DNA from: Bacillota bacterium
GTDB lineage: Bacteria; Bacillota; Sulfobacillia; Sulfobacillales; Sulfobacillaceae
NCBI GenBank assembly: GCA_021784595.1
Contig: JAJYHT010000029.1
Coordinates: forward strand, 1 to 34,182
DNA: 34,182 nt
Reading direction: 5' to 3'
Part shown: positions 24,070-34,182 of the stretch, in pieces
Numbering within the stretch: position 1 is the stretch's first letter
Layout of the letters: each line of letters begins with the position of its first letter
Made by a program: the position numbers and the translations under genes
The notes under the pieces: generated by a model
Told to the model about the DNA's origin: nothing
What the model saw: the letters and a program-made list of their open reading frames with translations, nothing else
The model's database searches: none

Positions 24070-24122
24070 ACTACATGTGAATTGACGAACTTTCGTCTGG
24101 TGGGATGAAGGGTGGCGTGGAA

Positions 24123-24473
24123 ATGAGCGGCTATGCGGCATTGTTGCTGTATTTAGCGGTGGCGTTTTTGGTGGCCTTGGGCATCTCGTTTGCCTCAGAA
24201 ATGCTCGGGCCCAAGGCGCCCGGGGGTCTAAAACGGACGACTTACGAATCGGGTATTGTTCCTGAAGCGCCGGTTGGATATTTTTCCGTGCGATTTTATC
24301 GCGTGGCGATGTTCTTTATGATTTTTGACGTGGCGGTTATGGCCCTTTACCCTTGGGCAACCAGCCTCAAGACGCTCCATCAAGCCGGGTTCGAGAAAGC
24401 CCTGCTCTTTTTGACTGTGATAGGGATTGCCTTTGGCTATGTGTGGAATAAGGGGGGATTCCGGTGGGATTAA
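24123..24473 (+). CDS. nuoA: NADH-quinone oxidoreductase subunit A
   Basis: The 116-residue membrane subunit has three hydrophobic helices and the conserved loop [14 protein letters not shown] between TM1 and TM2, followed by [24 protein letters not shown] in pieces, where the F-D-V/I-E region has D-V-A. It helps form the quinone site and the E-channel start at the interface with the peripheral arm. ATG 24123 was preferred because AAGGGTGG lies upstream; ATG 24105 in the same frame is possible. It is the first gene of the nuo operon and overlaps nuoB by ten bases. Confidence 0.93.
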
Positions 24474-24997
24474 CATCGCCCGTGCAAAAAGAGGCGGAAA
24501 AGTCGATTTTATTGACCTCGGTGGAAAAGATGGGTCGCTGGGCGCAGAAATCCTCCTTGTGGCCGGCGACGTTTGGGTTGGCATGTTGTGCCATCGAAAT
24601 GATGAGCGTCACCAATTCACGGTACGACTTGGCGCGATTTGGCTCAGAGGTGTTTCGCGCATCGCCTAGACAAGCCGACCTGATGATTGTGGCGGGCCGA
24701 GTCAGCCAAAAGATGGCACCGGTGCTGCGGACGATTTGGGAACAGATGCCTGAACCTAAATGGGTCATTTCGATGGGGGCTTGCGCTTCGTCGGGTGGAG
24801 TATTTGACAACTACGCCATCATTCAAGGTGTGGATCATGTTGTCCCGGTGGATGTATACGTACCGGGGTGTCCGCCTAATCCGGAAGCGTTGATGTTTGG
24901 CATTTTGAAACTCCAAGAGATGATTTTAGAGGGAGTTCCTCCCAAATATCTTCAATTGCAGAAAGAAGAGGAGGCATTGGCTCGTGAATCGCAATGA
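24464..24997 (+). CDS. nuoB: NADH-quinone oxidoreductase subunit B
   Basis: The 177-residue subunit holds the terminal [4Fe-4S] cluster N2. Its four ligands are present: the tandem C41-C42 in [11 protein letters not shown]107 in MGACASSGG and C136 in [11 protein letters not shown]. It passes electrons to quinone at the junction with NuoD. The GTG start at 24464 has AAGGGGGG upstream and overlaps the nuoA end. The length is normal. Confidence 0.96.
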
Positions 24998-25445
24998 TCC
25001 CGAGATTTTGGATCGGCTCGATGCTCGCTTTCCGGGTACCCTGGAACGTGTGACCACGGTCGATCAACCGACCGTCATAGTTCCTAAAGAGATGATCTTG
25101 GCTTTTTTGGGGCACGTTAGGGATCTTGAGGGATATGCTTTGTGTCTTGATGAGCTGGTGGTGGATAACTTTCCTGCGCAACCACGTTTCGAATTGGTCT
25201 ACCATCTCTACCATCCTGCTAAATATGCGCGACTGCGTGTCAAGACCCGGGTGGGGGTAGACGAAGAGATGCCGTCCGCAACCGGAATTTGGCCTGGCAC
25301 CAATTGGCCTGAACGCGAAGCGTTTGATTTGTTTGGCATTCGCTATACCGGTCATCCGCAGCTGACGCGGATATATATGCCCGACGATTGGGACGGGCAT
25401 CCATTACGCAAGGATTATCCCTTGGCAGGGAATCGGGTCGACTAA
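24984..25445 (+). CDS. nuoC: NADH-quinone oxidoreductase subunit C
   Basis: The 153-residue peripheral-arm subunit carries the 30 kDa subunit signature near its end: [18 protein letters not shown] followed by [20 protein letters not shown]. It has no cofactor and supports NuoD and NuoB. The GTG start 24984 lies ten bases after GAGGAGG and 14 bases inside nuoB. It is a separate gene from nuoD, unlike the NuoCD fusion of enteric bacteria. Confidence 0.94.
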
Positions 25446-25457
25446 GGGGGCGACAAT

Positions 25458-26657
25458 ATGGAGACAACGGAACCGCAACGTCTGATGGACGGCGAGACCA
25501 TGATTATCAATATGGGACCGCAGCACCCAAGCACGCACGGGGTGCTCAGAGTACGTCTTGAACTGGATGGCGAACGCGTGGTCCACGCCGAACCGATCGT
25601 TGGGTATTTGCATACCGGATTTGAAAAAACCGCGGAAAGTCTTACATATCAGCAATGCAATACCATCACTGATCGCCTCGACTATTTGGCGCCCATGACC
25701 AACAATTTAGCCTACGTGCTTGCGGTGGAAAAATTGATGAATTTAGAGGTTCCTAAGCGTGCTCAGTACATTCGGGTTCTGTTTTCGGAGCTGACACGGG
25801 TCGCTAGTCACTTGGTGTGGCTGGGGACGCATGTGATGGATTTAGGGGCCATGAGTCTCTTCTTTTACACCATGCGGGAACGAGAAGTGATCTTGGATTT
25901 GATTGAAGCCGCGGCCGGAGTGCGGATGAACCCAAGCTACTTCCGTGTTGGAGGATTGGCTTATGATCTGCCCGATGGGTTTCATGAAAAAGTCACGGCG
26001 TTGATAAAGGATTTTCCTCGATGGATGAAATCTTACCGCAATCTGTTTGAGGGTAATCCGCTGATTAACGAACGTCTGATGGGAATTTCCTACATTAGTC
26101 AGGAGCAATGTCTGGCCTGGTCGGTGACGGGACCGAATCTTAGAGCCACCGGACTGGCGTTGGATCTCCGCAAAGTGGAACCGTACTGTTTTTACGATGA
26201 ATTTGATTTCAAAGTGCCGATTCGGACCGAAGGCGATGCTTATGCGCGGTTTTGGGTTCGTGTAGACGAAATCTACGAATCTATGAAGATTATCGAACAG
26301 GTGCTAGAAAAGATTACGCCCCACGGTCCCTATACGACCTCCGATCGGAAAGTGGCTTTGCCGCCTCGAGAAGAAATTTATGGCAACATGGAAGCGCTAA
26401 TACACCAGTTCAAATTGGTCACGGCAGGATTTCCGGTTCCGCGCGGCGAGGTGTATCAATCGGTGGAGGGTCCGCGGGGAGAAATGGGATTTTACTTGGT
26501 TTCCGACGGAGGTCCCAAACCCTATCGCTGGCGTGCCCGCACTCCATCGTTTTATAATCTGCAAACACTGCCGATTCTTTGCCAGGACGGGTTGGTTGCG
26601 GATGTGATTACTGCCATTGGGAGCATCGATATTATGTTGGGAGATGTCGATAAATGA
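25458..26657 (+). CDS. nuoD: NADH-quinone oxidoreductase subunit D
   Basis: The 399-residue 49 kDa-type subunit lines the quinone pocket with NuoB. It shows NMGPQHPSTHGVLR with the quinone-site histidine, TGFEKTAESLTYQQ, SVTGPNLRATG and the C-terminal DIMLGDVDK (canonical I-D-x-V-x-G-E-V-D-R). The length is standard. AAGGGGGCG precedes ATG 25458. It ends overlapping nuoE by four bases (ATGA). Confidence 0.96.
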   Translation: METTEPQRLMDGETMIINMGPQHPSTHGVLRVRLELDGERVVHAEPIVGYLHTGFEKTAESLTYQQCNTITDRLDYLAPMTNNLAYVLAVEKLMNLEVPKRAQYIRVLFSELTRVASHLVWLGTHVMDLGAMSLFFYTMREREVILDLIEAAAGVRMNPSYFRVGGLAYDLPDGFHEKVTALIKDFPRWMKSYRNLFEGNPLINERLMGISYISQEQCLAWSVTGPNLRATGLALDLRKVEPYCFYDEFDFKVPIRTEGDAYARFWVRVDEIYESMKIIEQVLEKITPHGPYTTSDRKVALPPREEIYGNMEALIHQFKLVTAGFPVPRGEVYQSVEGPRGEMGFYLVSDGGPKPYRWRARTPSFYNLQTLPILCQDGLVADVITAIGSIDIMLGDVDK

Positions 26658-27121
26658 AACCGGAGTGGAAGGCATGGGCCCAAGAGGCCAAAAACGAGTT
26701 TCCTCGGGCAAATTCGGCATTAATGCCCTTGATGCATCGCATTCAATTGTCAGAGGGCTGGCTGTCCAATGAGACCATCCGCGATGTAGCCGAATTGATG
26801 GAACTTCCGGTGCAATATGTGGAATCCGTAGCTTCCTTTTATTCCTTGTTTCATCGCCAGGCAGTAGGCAAACGTGTAATCCATGTATGCGTCGGACTAT
26901 CTTGTGCGCTAAAGGGGTCCGATGAATTAATGCATGCCTTGGAAGAACGGTTGGGCATCAAAGAAGGGCAAACCACGGAGGATGGGGCGTATACCCTATT
27001 GGAAGCCGAGTGTTTGGCAGCATGTGACAAAGCGCCGATGGTGCAGGTCAACCTTCGTTATGAGGGACCGGTACGGCCAGAAGACGCGGAGCGGCTACTG
27101 TCTGAGGAGGTGCCGTCGTGA
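26654..27121 (+). CDS. nuoE: NADH-quinone oxidoreductase subunit E
   Basis: The 155-residue thioredoxin-like subunit binds the [2Fe-2S] cluster N1a. Its ligands follow the expected spacing: C79-x4-C84 in VCVGLSC and C120-x3-C124 in AECLAAC. With NuoF it forms the NADH dehydrogenase module. It is coupled to nuoD and nuoF by four-base overlaps at both ends. Its presence means NADH is the likely electron donor. Confidence 0.95.
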   Translation: MKPEWKAWAQEAKNEFPRANSALMPLMHRIQLSEGWLSNETIRDVAELMELPVQYVESVASFYSLFHRQAVGKRVIHVCVGLSCALKGSDELMHALEERLGIKEGQTTEDGAYTLLEAECLAACDKAPMVQVNLRYEGPVRPEDAERLLSEEVPS

Positions 27122-28410
27122 GCGCTCAGCATTATCTGTTGCGAAACCGAGACGTTGAAGGCATCGATCGGATTGAGGTCTACGAGGCCAACAGGGGCTA
27201 TGCCGCCTTGCGCCAAGCGTTAAAAGACTATCAGCCTGATGAATTGGTTGCCATGGTAAAAAAGTCAGGTCTTAGAGGACGCGGCGGCGCAGGTTTTCCC
27301 ACGGGAATGAAGTGGGGATTTCTGCCTAACGATGGCCGGTCGCGATATTTAGTGGTGAACTCAGACGAAGCCGAGCCAGGGACTTTTAAAGATCGCGAAT
27401 TGATTGAAGAAAATCCCCACCAGTTGGTGGAGGGAATTATCATTTCGAGTTATGCTACCCGCGCTTCTGAGGCTTATATATACTGCCGGGGAGAATTTTT
27501 ACGAGGAGCCGAGCAACTCAAACGCGCAGTAAAAGAAGCATATGACCACGGCTATTTGGGCAAGAACATTTTGGGTACGGACTATTCTCTGGAATTAAAG
27601 GTTTATCGGGGTGCCGGGGCCTACATCTGCGGCGAGGAATCGGCTCTTTTAGAGTCGCTAGAAGGAAAGCGCGGCAACCCGCGGTTAAAGCCTCCCTTTC
27701 CGGCAGTGGCCGGCCTTTATGGAGGGCCCACGGTGGTCAACAATGTGGAGACGATTTGCAACTTGCCCCCACTGGTGACCTATGGTCCCGAATGGTATAC
27801 CAGCATGGGAACTGAGAAAAGTCCGGGACTAAAGATCATGTCAGTGAGCGGTGCGGTCAAACGGCCCGGGAACTACGAGATTCCTTTGGCAACACCCTTG
27901 CGCACGCTGATTGAAGAATATGCAGGGGGCATGTTGCCGGGACGCACCGTCAAAGCGGTTATCCCCGGTGGCAGTTCGGTTCCACTTCTTATGCCTGACC
28001 AATTGGATACACCTTTGGATTATGAGTCCGTGGTTAAGGCGGGCTCCATGTTGGGTTCGGGAGGGTGCATCGTGCTCGACGACCGGGTCTGCATGGTGGG
28101 TGCCACCGCGCGGTTGGTCAAATTTTACCGTGAGGAGTCCTGCGGTAAATGCACTCCCTGTCGCGAAGGTACGTACTGGATGACGGATGTGTTGGAACGA
28201 ATCGAGTACGGACAAGGTCAACTGAGCGATTTAGACTTGTTGGCTGATGTGGCGGATAATATTGCGGGCAAGTGCTTCTGTCCCTTGGGAGATGCCTCGT
28301 TAGGGGTTCTCGTCAGCGCCTTGAAGCATTTCCGCCATGAATTTGAGGCACACGTGGCCGACCACGGGTGTCCGATGGGAGCGAGGTTGTATGATACGGT
28401 TAACCATTGA
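27118..28410 (+). CDS. nuoF: NADH-quinone oxidoreductase subunit F
   Basis: The 430-residue subunit binds NADH, FMN and [4Fe-4S] cluster N3. It shows the glycine-rich GRGGAGFPTGMKW (54-66), NSDEAEPGTFKDR, GAGAYICGEESALL, an SLBB domain, and cluster ligands C342, C345 and C348 in SCGKCTPCREG plus C388 in CFCPLGD. The GTG start overlaps the nuoE stop by four bases. The length is standard. Confidence 0.96.
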   Translation: MSAQHYLLRNRDVEGIDRIEVYEANRGYAALRQALKDYQPDELVAMVKKSGLRGRGGAGFPTGMKWGFLPNDGRSRYLVVNSDEAEPGTFKDRELIEENPHQLVEGIIISSYATRASEAYIYCRGEFLRGAEQLKRAVKEAYDHGYLGKNILGTDYSLELKVYRGAGAYICGEESALLESLEGKRGNPRLKPPFPAVAGLYGGPTVVNNVETICNLPPLVTYGPEWYTSMGTEKSPGLKIMSVSGAVKRPGNYEIPLATPLRTLIEEYAGGMLPGRTVKAVIPGGSSVPLLMPDQLDTPLDYESVVKAGSMLGSGGCIVLDDRVCMVGATARLVKFYREESCGKCTPCREGTYWMTDVLERIEYGQGQLSDLDLLADVADNIAGKCFCPLGDASLGVLVSALKHFRHEFEAHVADHGCPMGARLYDTVNH

Positions 28411-30703
28411 CGGGCAGGAAGTCACCGTTCCACAAGGGACCATGATTGTGGATGCCGCAGCGAAACTTGGCGTGGATGTTCCCATATATTGCTATCATCA
28501 GGCATTGGGTCCGCTTGGAGCCTGCCGCATGTGTCTGGTAGAAGTGGAAAAAATGCCTAAACTCGCCACAGCCTGCACTACGGCGGTGAGCGAAGGAATG
28601 GTTGTGCGCACCAGTGGACCAGCGGTTGACAAGGGGCGCCGGGGTGTACTGGAATTTCTGCTGATAAACCATCCGCTGGACTGTCCGGTTTGCGACAAGG
28701 GCGGCGAATGTTTCCTGCAAGACTATACATTTGAATACGGGCCCGGTGGTGGACGATTTCAAGAGCCCAAGATTGAGAAGGTAAAAGATGGTCCTATCAA
28801 TCCGTTTGTGTTGATTGACCAGGAACGCTGTGTCTTGTGTCAACGATGCGTGCGGTTCATGCGGGAATATGTGGGAGAAGAGCAACTGCTGCTCGAAGGA
28901 CGCGGTGTGGAAACCGTGGTGACCACCGTGGAGCACGAGCCGGCAACTTCTCAGTTTACGGGCAACGTGATTGACTTGTGTCCGGTAGGAGCGTTGCTTT
29001 CTGCTCCCTACCATCATAAAGGGCGGCCTTGGAACATAGAACGGGAAGAATCAGTCTGTCCTCATTGTCCCGTGGGTTGCACCAGCAAAATCACCGCCCG
29101 TGAAGGGCACGTCATTCGGATGGAAGGGCGGCCTATACCTGACCGGGAATGGGGATGGCTCTGTGATCGGGGTCGCTTTGGCTATGACTTTGGCTACCAT
29201 CCGGATCGCTTGGCAACGTCTATAGTCAAGGGAAAAGAAAACACTGCCGCGCAGGCCACCCGTCAAGTAGCCGAGTGGCTGAAAACGGTGGTGGACCAGG
29301 AAGGTGGACGCGGGGTGGGATTCATCATCGGCGGCGGCCACACCACCGAAGAAGCCTATCAATTGCGCCGTTTTGCCGCGGAGGTGATTGGAACCGACCA
29401 GCTGGCCATAAGCCGGACGGAAGCCGGCTATTTGCCGCGCGGTTTGAACGGAACGTTTGATGATGTTAAGCAGGCAGATACGGTAGTGCTCCTGGGTTCG
29501 GATCCCTATGACACGGTGCCAGTGGTGCACTTAAAACTTCGGGACCGGTTGTTGCACTATCCTGCCTTACGGGTCATCGGTCTTGGCCCCTTGCCGTTAA
29601 CACGTGATACGCTGCCAGGGTTGGACGTCCTGGTGCCTCCGGGTCAAGAGTCGCTAGCCCTAGCACTGGCGATGGCGGCGCAATGGCCCCAAAATTCCGA
29701 CGTGCAAACGCTTGTGGGCAGTTTGAAAGAATTTGAACTCCAGGGTGTAACGGCCCAAACGTTGGTTCAGCTTGGACAATATTTGCAGGGAGCCGAGCAT
29801 TTGGTGCTGCTGTGGGATGGGAAAGAGCCTGAAATGGCGATGGTCTTGGGCGTTTTGGCTCGGTTACGGGAAAAGCCTACGGCTGTGCTGCCCACCTTTG
29901 GACCTGCTAATTGGCGAGGTTACGAACATGCCGGATTTTCGCCCCGTTTTGAAGATTTAACAGCAGTGTTGGAAAAAGCGCGCGATGGCGAGATAAAGAT
30001 ATTGATGGTGTTTGGGGCGGACTTGTTACGAGAGTATCCCAACCGGCAACTGGTGGAATCGGCATTTAACCAGGTCGAGTATTTAGTGGTTGAGGGCATT
30101 TTGCCGCCCCAAGGAGCTCAACACGTCGACGCGTTGTTGCCAGGCGCGGCATGGGCTGAGGTCTACGGCACGTATATTAACATGGAAGCACGGCTGCAAG
30201 TCGCCATGGCGGGCGTTCAACCGCCCGGTCAGGCACGTCCGATAAAAACGTACGTCAATACCTGGGCCCGCATGTTGATGAAGCCCTTAAACTGGGATGA
30301 GGAATGGGATCCCTTTGATGACGACAGCGGCGATCTGCTTCCTTTTGAGCCCGTGCCGGACCACGTTGTGGCATTGGCAATGCCCCCCGAGGCCGTGGGC
30401 CCAATGACTTTGGTGACCGGAGCGTTTATCTGGGAATCCGGGCAGCCTTCGGAGATCTTGGTTCCGCGGGTGCCTCAGTTTCCCGGTCGAATCAATCCCG
30501 CCGAGGTTAAAGACATGGGTCTATCCACAAAACGGGGTCATATTATGGTGAGCCAAGGGTCTGAAAGCATCGTGGTCGCTGTGACTGCCGATCCTCAAGT
30601 GCCCAAAGGCATTTTGTGGGTGCCGCAAGGCCTGTTTGGAACTAATCATTTAATTGAAGGCACCGTAACCATCAGCGGAGTCACGGAGGAGGTTACGGTA
30701 TGA
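28391..30703 (+). CDS. nuoG: NADH-quinone oxidoreductase subunit G
   Basis: The 770-residue large peripheral subunit carries an N-terminal ferredoxin domain (C34, C45, C48, C62), a His-Cys cluster (H94, C98, C101, C107), a [4Fe-4S] site (C147, C150, C153, C197) and the extra N7 site (C223, C226, C230, C258). A molybdopterin-oxidoreductase-like domain follows. N7 is found in only part of the family, for example E. coli and Thermus. ATG 28391 was chosen because MIRLTIDG begins the ferredoxin fold and GGAGCGAGG lies upstream; the frame extends to 28337. It overlaps the nuoF end by 20 bases. Confidence 0.95.
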   Translation: MIRLTIDGQEVTVPQGTMIVDAAAKLGVDVPIYCYHQALGPLGACRMCLVEVEKMPKLATACTTAVSEGMVVRTSGPAVDKGRRGVLEFLLINHPLDCPVCDKGGECFLQDYTFEYGPGGGRFQEPKIEKVKDGPINPFVLIDQERCVLCQRCVRFMREYVGEEQLLLEGRGVETVVTTVEHEPATSQFTGNVIDLCPVGALLSAPYHHKGRPWNIEREESVCPHCPVGCTSKITAREGHVIRMEGRPIPDREWGWLCDRGRFGYDFGYHPDRLATSIVKGKENTAAQATRQVAEWLKTVVDQEGGRGVGFIIGGGHTTEEAYQLRRFAAEVIGTDQLAISRTEAGYLPRGLNGTFDDVKQADTVVLLGSDPYDTVPVVHLKLRDRLLHYPALRVIGLGPLPLTRDTLPGLDVLVPPGQESLALALAMAAQWPQNSDVQTLVGSLKEFELQGVTAQTLVQLGQYLQGAEHLVLLWDGKEPEMAMVLGVLARLREKPTAVLPTFGPANWRGYEHAGFSPRFEDLTAVLEKARDGEIKILMVFGADLLREYPNRQLVESAFNQVEYLVVEGILPPQGAQHVDALLPGAAWAEVYGTYINMEARLQVAMAGVQPPGQARPIKTYVNTWARMLMKPLNWDEEWDPFDDDSGDLLPFEPVPDHVVALAMPPEAVGPMTLVTGAFIWESGQPSEILVPRVPQFPGRINPAEVKDMGLSTKRGHIMVSQGSESIVVAVTADPQVPKGILWVPQGLFGTNHLIEGTVTISGVTEEVTV

Positions 30704-31686
30704 TTTCAACCATTCTTCTGATAATCAAGATCTTGGTTCTGATTGGTATTTTGATGGGTGGATTTGCGTACACCACACTGGTTGAACGGCGTTTGCTGGG
30801 ATTTTTCCAGCTTCGTCTAGGACCTAACCGGGTTGGTCCCCAAGGGCTGTTGCAACCATTGGCGGACGGTTTGAAAATGGCTTTGAAAGAAGATCTGATG
30901 CCTCTGGGTGCGGATCCTATCGTCTATCGAATGGCTCCGGTGTTTTCATTGTTTGCTGCCTTATCAGTAGATGCGGTGATCCCGTTCGGAGCGCCCATTC
31001 ATATCTTTGGGCAGTCGGTGAGCCTGGATATTGCCAATCCCAGCATTGGCCTCTTAATTGCTTTTGCATTCAGCTCTTTAGGCATTTACGGCATTGTTCT
31101 GGGCGGATGGGCTTCGCAAAACAAGTATTCCTTGTTGGGTGGCATCCGTGCTTCAGCGCAGATGATTTCGTACGAATTGGCTATGGGGTTGTCAGTTTTA
31201 GGAGTCTTGATGATGGCGGGAACGGCCAACTTGGAGAACATTGTATTGGCTCAACGTACCCAAGGGTGGTTCTTTATACCACAGATAGTGCCCTTCGTGA
31301 TTTATTTCATCACGGCAATAGCCGAGACCAACCGAACCCCGTTCGACTTGCCAGAGGCGGAGTCGGAGTTGGTGGCGGGATACCACACGGAATATTCCGG
31401 AATCCGGTTCGCGATGTTCTTCATGGCCGAGTATATCAATGTGCTGACGGTCAGTGGACTAGCGGTGACTCTGTTCTTTGGCGGGTGGCTGGGACCCAGT
31501 TTTTTACCTCCGATTCTCTGGTTTGTGATTAAGGTTGCTGTCTTTGTCTTCGCCTTTATATGGATTCGTGCCACCTTTCCGCGGTTCCGCTATGATAAGT
31601 TGATGTCTTTTGGCTGGAAGGTACTGCTTCCGATATCCTTTATTTACTTTTTAGGGACGGCGGCGTTTGTTAGCGGATTGCTCTAA
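30700..31686 (+). CDS. nuoH: NADH-quinone oxidoreductase subunit H
   Basis: The 328-residue membrane subunit with about eight helices links the quinone site to the proton path. It shows ERRLLGFFQLRLGPNRVGP, GLLQPLADGLKM, and the acidic loop AETNRTPFDLPEAESELVAG (written here as consecutive conserved residues), followed by YHTEYSG. All key glutamates of that loop are present. ATG 30700 overlaps nuoG by four bases. The length is typical. Confidence 0.96.
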   Translation: MISTILLIIKILVLIGILMGGFAYTTLVERRLLGFFQLRLGPNRVGPQGLLQPLADGLKMALKEDLMPLGADPIVYRMAPVFSLFAALSVDAVIPFGAPIHIFGQSVSLDIANPSIGLLIAFAFSSLGIYGIVLGGWASQNKYSLLGGIRASAQMISYELAMGLSVLGVLMMAGTANLENIVLAQRTQGWFFIPQIVPFVIYFITAIAETNRTPFDLPEAESELVAGYHTEYSGIRFAMFFMAEYINVLTVSGLAVTLFFGGWLGPSFLPPILWFVIKVAVFVFAFIWIRATFPRFRYDKLMSFGWKVLLPISFIYFLGTAAFVSGLL

Positions 31687-31727
31687 CATTGACCGCAGGC
31701 GGTCAGAATCAAAGGAGGATGGGTGTC

Positions 31728-32165
31728 ATGTTGGATGGCGTAAAAGCGATGACAAAAGGGCTCGGAGTAACCTTTAAGGCATTATTTGAGCCACGCGACA
31801 CCATCTCGTATCCCGAGAAGCGGCGCGAATATGCTCCGCGTTTTCGGGGCAAGCACATGCTGGCCAAAGACGTCGATGGCCATGAGTTGTGTGTTGGGTG
31901 CGGATTGTGCGAAGCGGTCTGTCCCGCGCACGCAATTCGGGTGGTTGCCGCATCGGCGCCCGAAGGGCAGCCCATTTCTTGGACCAACCGATATGCGGTG
32001 GACTATGAGGTAGACTTAATCCGTTGCATTTTTTGCGGGATGTGTGAAGAAGCCTGTCCGACCAATGCGGTGCGTTTAACGCCATTTAATGAGCTAGCAG
32101 CGGCGGACCGGCTGGAAATGATCGCTGATAAGGAAGAATTATTGCATCCACCGGTAAGGAAATGA
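31728..32165 (+). CDS. nuoI: NADH-quinone oxidoreductase subunit I
   Basis: The 145-residue ferredoxin-like subunit has two complete [4Fe-4S] motifs, CVGCGLCEAVCP (C55, C58, C61, C65) and CIFCGMCEEACP (C100, C103, C106, C110), for clusters N6a and N6b. The frame is open from 31689, but AAAGGAGG (31711-31718) positions ATG 31728 as the start. It follows nuoH after 41 bases. Confidence 0.96.
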   Translation: MLDGVKAMTKGLGVTFKALFEPRDTISYPEKRREYAPRFRGKHMLAKDVDGHELCVGCGLCEAVCPAHAIRVVAASAPEGQPISWTNRYAVDYEVDLIRCIFCGMCEEACPTNAVRLTPFNELAAADRLEMIADKEELLHPPVRK

Positions 32166-32178
32166 GGGAATTGGCGAG

Positions 32179-32709
32179 ATGATTCCGTTTAGTATCTTGG
32201 CGGTGGTAGCCATCGCCGGGGCGTTAGGTGTGATATTGGGAAAGCAGCCGGTTCATAGTGCACTGTTCCTGGTTGGGAACATCTTGGCATTAGCGGTGCT
32301 TTATCTATTGTTGTCTGCAGAGTTTCTTGCAGTAGCGCAAGTCATTGTCTATGCTGGCGCTATTATGGTGTTGTTTTTGTTTGTGGTTACCTTATTGACC
32401 GCAGGCAAAGAAGAGAGCGAGCCGCCAGAAGACTTGTCTGGCCAACGCTGGACAGCCGGAATTCTGGCGATAGGCGTTGGGGGGGCATTGGCTGTCCTGG
32501 CGGCAGGTCATCCCGGGCCCAAGGTTGCTGCCGGGTTGCCTGTCAACTTTGGGAATTTGCATGGGATTGGCCATTTGCTGTGGGGTTCGGATTTCCTCTA
32601 TTTGATGGCTCTGGCCATCATGCTGCTCACCGCCGCCTTGGGCATCCTGGTGCTTAACCGACCGATGCGGCGTACTCACGTTCGCCATCAAAGGAGGAAA
32701 GAAGCATGA
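32179..32709 (+). CDS. nuoJ: NADH-quinone oxidoreductase subunit J
   Basis: The 176-residue membrane subunit has five helices and the conserved TM3 region SAEFLAVAQVIVYAGAIMVL, whose pi-bulge is important in gating. It forms part of the E-channel with NuoK and NuoA. GAGGGAATTGGCGAG precedes ATG 32179. It overlaps nuoK by four bases. Confidence 0.95.
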   Translation: MIPFSILAVVAIAGALGVILGKQPVHSALFLVGNILALAVLYLLLSAEFLAVAQVIVYAGAIMVLFLFVVTLLTAGKEESEPPEDLSGQRWTAGILAIGVGGALAVLAAGHPGPKVAAGLPVNFGNLHGIGHLLWGSDFLYLMALAIMLLTAALGILVLNRPMRRTHVRHQRRKEA

Positions 32710-33008
32710 TTCCTGTCAACTGGGTGGTGGCCCTAGCTGCTATTATTTTTGCCATTGGGGCGATCGGGGTGATGACCCGGCGAAATCCCCTGATTATGTT
32801 TATGTCGGCCGAAATGATGTGGAATGCAGCAGCCCTGGCCTTTATCGCCTTTGCCAGGCAGTGGCATTCCATGTCAGGGCAGGTCATGGCTTTTCTTATT
32901 GTAGGAACTGCGGCAGCCGAAGTGGGCATTGGGTTGGCCATTATCGTCACCGTTTATCATCGACGGCATCGCCTGGATATTGATGAGATATCGGGAATGA
33001 AGGGTTAA
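32706..33008 (+). CDS. nuoK: NADH-quinone oxidoreductase subunit K
   Basis: The 100-residue membrane subunit has three helices. The two conserved glutamates of the proton path are present: one in MSAEMMWNAAALAF (E. coli E36) and one in TAAAEVGIGLAI (E. coli E72). ATG 32706 overlaps the nuoJ stop, and GGAGGAAAG lies upstream. The length is normal. Confidence 0.96.
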   Translation: MIPVNWVVALAAIIFAIGAIGVMTRRNPLIMFMSAEMMWNAAALAFIAFARQWHSMSGQVMAFLIVGTAAAEVGIGLAIIVTVYHRRHRLDIDEISGMKG

Positions 33009-33040: not shown

Positions 33041-34182
33041 ATGCAACTTCTGACTGAGATTTTGCTACTCCCGTTAATTGGGGCAGTCACCATAACGACA
33101 TTTAAGGGCCTAATGCCCAAAAAACTGCCAGGCATCTGGGCGAGCTTATTGGTTGGCATCAGTTTTTTGCTAAGCATTATGGCTGATGTAAATGTCTCGC
33201 ATTTGTCGGCTAGTCATCGGGTGATTACAGGGACCTTGTGGACATGGGTCAGTGGATTTGGGCCCTCGATAGGGGTTCGACTATATCTAGATCCCTTGGC
33301 TGGAATTTGGCTCTTGGTGATAACTGGTGTTGGAATGTTAATACATATCTATTCCATTGGGTACATGCACGACGACCCAGGCCGAGCGCGATACTTTTCC
33401 TATTTGAATTTTTTCATCTTTTCGATGCTGCTCTTGGTGCTCGCCGGCAATCTCATTATCCTCCTGATTGGCTGGGCTTTAGTAGGATTGGCGTCGTACT
33501 TCCTAATCGGGTTTTGGTATCAAAGACCCTCTGCGGTGCGGGCTGCCAAGAAGGCTTTTGTCATGAATACAGTCGGCGATGTGGGGATTCTTTTAGGACT
33601 CTCGCTTCTCTATTACCATTACCACACCATTGGATATCCGCACTTGTTCGCGCTCTTTGCCAATGCGGCGCCGGGCAGCGCATTTTTTGAATGGACGGCA
33701 TTTTTACTCTATGTAGGAGCCATGGCGAAATCAGCGCAGTTCCCATTACATATGTGGCTTGCTGATGCGATGGAAGGTCCAACCCCGGTTTCTGCGCTCA
33801 TTCATGCCGCTACTATGGTTACCGCAGGCGTGTATTTGATGGCCCGCCTGTATCCTTTGCTGCGATTGGCCCCTGATGTGCATTATCTGATAGGGGCGAT
33901 TGGCGCTTTTACTGCCATATTTGCGGCCAGTATTGCGATTTTCCAAAGGGACATCAAGAAAGTTCTCGCATACTCCACGCTTAGTCAATTGGGCTATATG
34001 TTCTTGGCCATTGGCGTCGGCGGTTTCGTGGCGGGAGTTTTTCATTTCATGACGCATGCCTTCTTTAAAGCCCTTCTGTTCTTAGCAGCGGGCAGTGTTA
34101 TTCATGCATTGCAAGGAGAGCAGGATCTCAACCACATGGGCGGGCTGGCAAAGAAAATGCCATGGACTGCAATGGCATTTTT
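33041..34182 (+). CDS. nuoL: NADH-quinone oxidoreductase subunit L, 3' end outside window
   Basis: The first 380 residues of the antiporter-like proton pump subunit are seen. The start ATG 33041 has AAGAAGGAG ten bases upstream. Conserved parts include YLDPLAG, the VMNTVGDVG segment with D180 (E. coli D178), K230 in AMAKSAQFPLHMWL (E. coli K229), PTPVSALIHAATMVTAGVYL and LAYSTLSQLGYM. The TM5 motif normally G-W-E-G-V-G-L reads G-W-A-L-V-G-L, so the conserved glutamate (E. coli E144) is A146. The rest of the gene, and probably nuoM and nuoN, lie beyond the end. Confidence 0.94.
   Translation, partial: MQLLTEILLLPLIGAVTITTFKGLMPKKLPGIWASLLVGISFLLSIMADVNVSHLSASHRVITGTLWTWVSGFGPSIGVRLYLDPLAGIWLLVITGVGMLIHIYSIGYMHDDPGRARYFSYLNFFIFSMLLLVLAGNLIILLIGWALVGLASYFLIGFWYQRPSAVRAAKKAFVMNTVGDVGILLGLSLLYYHYHTIGYPHLFALFANAAPGSAFFEWTAFLLYVGAMAKSAQFPLHMWLADAMEGPTPVSALIHAATMVTAGVYLMARLYPLLRLAPDVHYLIGAIGAFTAIFAASIAIFQRDIKKVLAYSTLSQLGYMFLAIGVGGFVAGVFHFMTHAFFKALLFLAAGSVIHALQGEQDLNHMGGLAKKMPWTAMAF

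Follow-up and report, generated by a model that had tools for sequence, protein, structure and literature searches.

The NuoL encoded in the window, the stretch of 34,182 nucleotides analyzed here, lacks the conserved TM5 glutamate that is paired with the TM7 lysine, and has Ala146 in its place. On present sequence evidence it is probably a working NuoL of an ancient natural subtype, in which the outer half of a double ion pair is gone and the pump would run on K229–D178 alone (E. coli numbering, unless window residues are named). The loss is shared by bacteria of several phyla and is linked to two further replacements, at positions 175 and 228.

Identification of the window protein as NuoL

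The translation of positions 33041-34180 (+) corresponds to NuoL residues 1-380, and the gene lies in a nuoA-N operon between nuoK and nuoM, with nuoM on C79, another contig of this draft genome of 101 contigs (Table 1). Judged by its gene content, nuoE, nuoF and nuoG included, the operon is predicted to encode a complete NADH-type complex I. NCBIfam TIGR01974 gave 505 bits for the window part of NuoL, passing the curated cut-off of 407.5 bits despite the truncation, while the 3′ part scored 114 bits; L039, a full-length relative with 92% identity, scored 670 bits with TIGR01974 and 675 bits with NF005141 (curated cut-off 556 bits). The best profiles of the window protein were those of NuoL, MrpA profiles scoring no more than 271 bits where their cut-offs exceed 900. 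Because NuoL profiles score better, an identity as an MrpA, DabB or hydrogenase-4 type antiporter-like protein was ruled out. An AlphaFold2 model (mean pLDDT 86.4) shows the NuoL fold and superposes on E. coli NuoL (7p7e_L) with a Z score of 44.9 and 1.9 Å over 374 residues.

Table 1. Genes of the nuo operon and key residues of NuoL (window positions unless a contig is named)
Feature	Position	Strand	E. coli equivalent and role	Basis or remark
nuoA-K, whole upstream nuo operon	24105..33008	+		genes named from translations
nuoA	24105-24473	+		ORF translation
nuoB	ends 24997	+		ORF translation
nuoC	24984-25445	+		ORF translation
nuoD	25458-26657	+		ORF translation
nuoE	26654-27121	+		ORF translation
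nuoF	27118-28410	+		ORF translation
nuoG	ends 30703	+		ORF translation
nuoH	30700-31686	+		ORF translation
nuoI	31689-32165	+		ORF translation
nuoJ	32179-32709	+		ORF translation
nuoK	32706-33008	+		ORF translation
nuoL 5′ part, codons 1-380	33041..34182	+		gene interrupted by contig end
nuoL 3′ part	contig C79, same genome (L038 7934-8566)	minus		followed by nuoM, nuoN
Ala146, codon GCT	33476..33478	+	E144 (TM5)	HMMER alignment
Thr177, codon ACA	33569..33571	+	R175 (TM6), partner of E144	alignment
Asp180, codon GAT	33578..33580	+	D178 (TM6), remaining counter-ion of central lysine	alignment
Ala229, codon GCG	33725..33727	+	G228, adjoins central lysine; third clade-diagnostic residue	
Lys230, codon AAA	33728..33730	+	K229 (TM7 break)	alignment, model
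His255	33803..33805	+	H254 (TM8), kept	alignment

Ala146 lies in the motif GWALVGL, which HMMER aligns without gaps to GWEGVGL of E. coli (3RKO_L) and T. thermophilus (4HE8_L); in the same alignment D180, K230 and H255 match D178, K229 and H254, so that the central TM7 lysine and the TM8 histidine are both present. The placing of the GCT codon at E144 in the initial annotation, and the numbering behind it, are confirmed by this alignment. In the model, residue 146 sits in the middle of helix 138-156 (TM5), and K230 at the TM7 break.

A second nuoL, which the initial annotation had suggested looking for, was not found in the window genome among the nuoL-like matches identified on C28, C71, C17 and C79, a further match lying on C1: the C28 match is DabB/NuoL-like and scores under the curated cut-off, those on C71 and C17 are hydrogenase-4/Ehr-type subunits, and that on C79 is NuoM. 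The C28 protein (G000:C28 15255-16106, L002) is itself without a TM5 Glu (FWVVTSLF). On C71 and C17, the hydrogenase-4-like membrane subunits may belong to Ehr-type complexes, which have been described in Sulfobacillus.

Three linked replacements around K229

E. coli NuoL has a double ion pair, K229–D178 inside (3.3 Å) and E144–R175 outside (2.9 Å) (PMC13324432). Among 292 deduplicated NuoL sequences, E144 occurs with Arg or Lys at 175 in 119 and a non-Glu residue occurs with a non-basic 175 in 172; Glu without a basic 175 is found once (L261) and a non-Glu residue with Arg never. R175 is thus lost in every natural E144-less NuoL read. A pattern scan of Actinomycetota (general pattern matched in 173 of 246 genomes) returned neither mixed combination, and one of Chloroflexota (159 of 201 genomes) returned two cases of Glu with a non-basic 175 and no true case of a non-Glu residue with Arg, the lone match of that kind (L338) having no similarity to NuoL. 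Two Chloroflexota proteins, L261 (G700:C531) and L337 (G570:C264), combine E144 with a non-basic 175 and Ala228, apparently having regained Glu inside the Glu-less clade. For L261, MAFFT and BLAST disagree at window column 229, and the raw sequence, VAAAAKSAQ, gives Ala.

Comparison of full-length columns singled out the same region: only positions 144, 175 and 228 (window 146, 177 and 229) split the clade (almost) perfectly from ordinary NuoL, with divergences of 0.97-1.00 against 0.71 for the next best NuoL column, and all three lie around K229 in E. coli. Ordinary NuoL proteins (E. coli, Thermus, Paracoccus, mycobacteria) have E144, R175 (or K) and G228 (or S), whereas the clade replaces all three: E144 by A, G or T, the basic residue at 175 by V, T, A, I, M, L or Q, and G228 by A. 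Position 146 is restricted to A, G or T in all 172 Glu-less sequences. Since E144 and R175 both give way to small or non-polar residues, the net charge is unchanged. The initial annotation, which held all other checked channel residues to be present, had overlooked the loss of R175 (T177) and also missed G228 (A229). As separate variants, three actinobacterial NuoL (L287, L289 and L310) have Lys for Arg at 175 with Glu144 kept.

In the rest of the route the two types agree. Position 178 (window 180) is D or E in all NuoL compared; K229, H254, K305, H338, K342 and K399 are kept in the Glu-less clade, H334 nearly so, and at the TM12 exit K399 and an acid (D or E) at 400 are each found in 154/154, the window's own TM12 stretch lying at the contig break. 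D178, the sole acid near K229, is common to ordinary NuoL as well. Nowhere along full-length NuoL does a column turn acidic as Glu is lost, which speaks against the compensation by another acid considered in the initial annotation. With the fold, the place in the operon and the match to NCBIfam NDH_I_L also shared, this shows that NuoL is not defined by the TM5 glutamate, since in everything else the clade belongs to the NuoL family.

Some variation was seen at the acidic positions themselves. At position 400 (E. coli D400), Glu is found in 64/154 Glu-less and 7/114 ordinary NuoL, and 6/114 ordinary NuoL have Gly. A Bacillota sub-group of Glu-less NuoL has Glu for Asp at 178 (L077, L080, L089, L090, L068, L070, L071, L092, L150 and L195), mostly with Asn in the place following the lost glutamate (GWANVG, GWTNVG); L092 reads GWGCVG.

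Distribution and origin of the Glu-less NuoL

NuoL was sought in 34 genomes of the window's family and 42 of its order, and was found once per genome in 32/34 and 40/42, respectively. The E144 position is Ala, or Gly in some genera, in 32/32 NuoL of the family, and Ala in 8/8 from elsewhere in the order. Farther out in the class the motif reads GW[AG][GA]VG, and in others of the phylum GW[AT]NVG or GWGCVG. Several distant relatives have a second, ordinary NuoL, which the family does not; with no other NuoL available, complex I of the family must use the Glu-less one.

When 84,980 species genomes were scanned for the motif lacking Glu, at least 118 stretches matched, and among the matches listed these came from Bacillota, Chloroflexota (Ktedonobacteria), Actinomycetota (Thermoleophilia), Nitrospinota, Vulcanimicrobiota/Eremiobacterota and a few otherwise-named records. 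In marine Nitrospina the Glu-less state is fixed, as it is in Ktedonobacteria and Thermoleophilia of soils and geothermal sites. The loss of the glutamate is an ancient inherited change common to bacteria of several phyla, not a local oddity. Two records titled Bifidobacterium breve (L110 and L159) have a Glu-less NuoL beside nuoM and nuoN. To our knowledge, Bifidobacterium is not expected to have a respiratory complex I, and the titles look wrong.

In NuoL trees rooted on MrpA and built without the four trait columns (L261 included, L337 left out), the Glu-less NuoL and L261 form a single clade nested in ordinary NuoL, with a FastTree support of 93 and an ultrafast bootstrap of 91 under an IQ-TREE mixture model. 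The tree requires two changes at the Glu position (one loss, one regain), one at the basic 175 and one to Ala228. A quick LG+G4 tree put four actinobacterial NuoL of the E-R-G type inside the clade, which the mixture-model tree places outside, and suggested at most one extra event. The association of the triad therefore goes back to roughly a single event that has been retained over a very long time and not to repeated co-loss, so the counts among sequences are no count of independent events and an independent-pair coevolution test is of no use. Glu has apparently been regained without Arg at least once and Arg without Glu was never seen, as would be expected if Arg cannot be tolerated buried and without a partner.

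Acid placement in NuoM, NuoN and MrpA

In 100 operons with a Glu-less NuoL, the TM5 acid of NuoM is Glu in 85 and Asp in 15, and the TM7 and TM8 lysines are present in all; NuoN has the TM5 Glu and both lysines in 78/78. In Eremiobacterota-like genomes, NuoM has Asp for Glu on TM5 (FWDLM; L102, L103, L108, L109, L161, L196 and L203). Several columns of NuoM, NuoN, NuoK and NuoJ differ with the state of NuoL, in comparison with an ordinary sample that is small (18-19 for NuoM and NuoN) and partly mis-picked; these differences are given no weight here.

The acid is on TM5 alone in NuoM, NuoN and MrpA, on TM5 and TM6 in ordinary NuoL, and on TM6 alone in Glu-less NuoL. Like NuoM and NuoN (ND4 and ND2), the window NuoL has a single acid as counter-ion of the TM7 lysine and no double ion pair, but theirs is on TM5, with Ser, Thr or Gly at the TM6 site, whereas the window protein has its acid on TM6 and Ala on TM5. 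MrpA of the Mrp antiporters, a homologous subunit, is likewise without an arginine at the R175 position; it differs in keeping the TM5 Glu, in having Gly at the D178 position and in having Thr before the lysine (five MrpA-like proteins). In each antiporter-like subunit, then, the TM7 lysine retains one acid or more.

How a NuoL without E144 may work

In the reading we favor, K229–D178, already drawn as the NuoL pair in PMC9271201, would open and close as the only pair and so gate the NuoL half-channel. D178, perhaps with water, would take over the role of E144, Ala228 may tune the packing beside the central lysine, and the pump would keep working. The paired loss would be tolerable because no unpaired arginine is left behind. 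The E. coli mutants E144A and E144Q have lost the same residue; according to the passages on them in PMC3046159 and PMC4938563, which cite Nakamaru-Ogiso 2010, either replacement alone abolishes or strongly lowers activity. This counts against our explanation, since D178 is evidently insufficient in that background. The mutants differ from the natural form, however, in keeping R175 and G228, where the natural protein has no R175 and has A228, which suggests that they fail because R175 is left unpaired.

The same mutants speak for a weakened distal module, which would take up or pass fewer protons and give less than 4 H+ per NADH, yield being traded for driving force; E. coli variants disturbed in distal transfer are also reported to have a lower stoichiometry (NuoM E407K, 1.5 H+/e-; PMC9271201). 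An altered distal pump was a fair inference of the initial annotation, but a weakened one is rather unlikely: all other residues of the NuoL route are kept, exit lysine and acid included, the restriction of position 146 to three residues is unlike a decaying channel, and Paracoccus mutants, though slow, stay strictly coupled at 4 H+ (PMC9802314). We give very little weight to a substitute acid at another site in NuoL or where NuoM and NuoL meet. Glu at position 360 is commoner in the subtype (96% vs 31%), but this position is not in the TM5-TM7 region and often has Glu in ordinary NuoL too, and the full-length columns hold no acid that follows the loss.

Hardly credible, too, is the suggestion that a steep external proton gradient makes the carboxylate unnecessary, which the initial annotation had raised as relief at low external pH. 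Near relatives do come from acid mine and solfatara sites, judged only by record names (CF.Solf) and the Sulfobacillus literature, yet the change is inherited and older than the family, and the same residues are equally fixed in marine Nitrospina/Nitrospinota, many Ktedonobacteria and Thermoleophilia. As to an error of sequencing or assembly, or a pseudogene where the contig ends, the gene is indeed cut there and the genome is a draft, but this reading is refuted by the open frame and by the relatives, the initial annotation's own check: none has Glu, and 40/40 NuoL of the order have A or G, in differing codons (GCT, GCG, GCA, GCC, GGC and GGA), while the 3′ part of nuoL is present on C79.

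Implications for complex I

The Glu-less NuoL is a version of a known protein. The TM5 glutamate is described as conserved in all such subunits (PMC4938563, PMC10212512). Literature searched by full text, with most subscription journals outside its scope, held no description of a natural loss of E144, and R175 was named there only by PMC13324432; the natural loss is thus seemingly undescribed, and prior notice is possible. How complex I is coupled is still debated, and most models treat the TM5 glutamate–TM7 lysine pair as universal. The domino model requires a proton site at NuoL TM5 (PMC10212512), and NuoL of the Glu-less clade has no such protonatable site.

A bolder proposition, to which we would give slightly less than an even chance, is that a complex I found across phyla pumps at full yield without a protonatable group on TM5 or R175, that D178 is the essential distal carboxylate, and that R175T/V with G228A would rescue E144A in E. 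coli. If this is true, models with a proton stop at NuoL TM5, among them the 'domino effect', a hop between NuoL TM5 and NuoM TM12, would be incomplete. As an evolutionary double mutant, in effect, of the most distal module, the clade allows the parts played by E144 and D178 to be told apart; it predicts that E144 mutants fail through an unpaired R175 and not for want of a proton-carrying carboxylate. It offers three residues (144, 175 and 228) for transfer into E. coli, and culturable hosts, by record titles, in Thermogemmatispora aurantia, Dictyobacter aurantiacus, Tengunoibacter tsumagoiensis and Thermosporothrix hazakensis. Current models do not foresee such a natural version of the pump.
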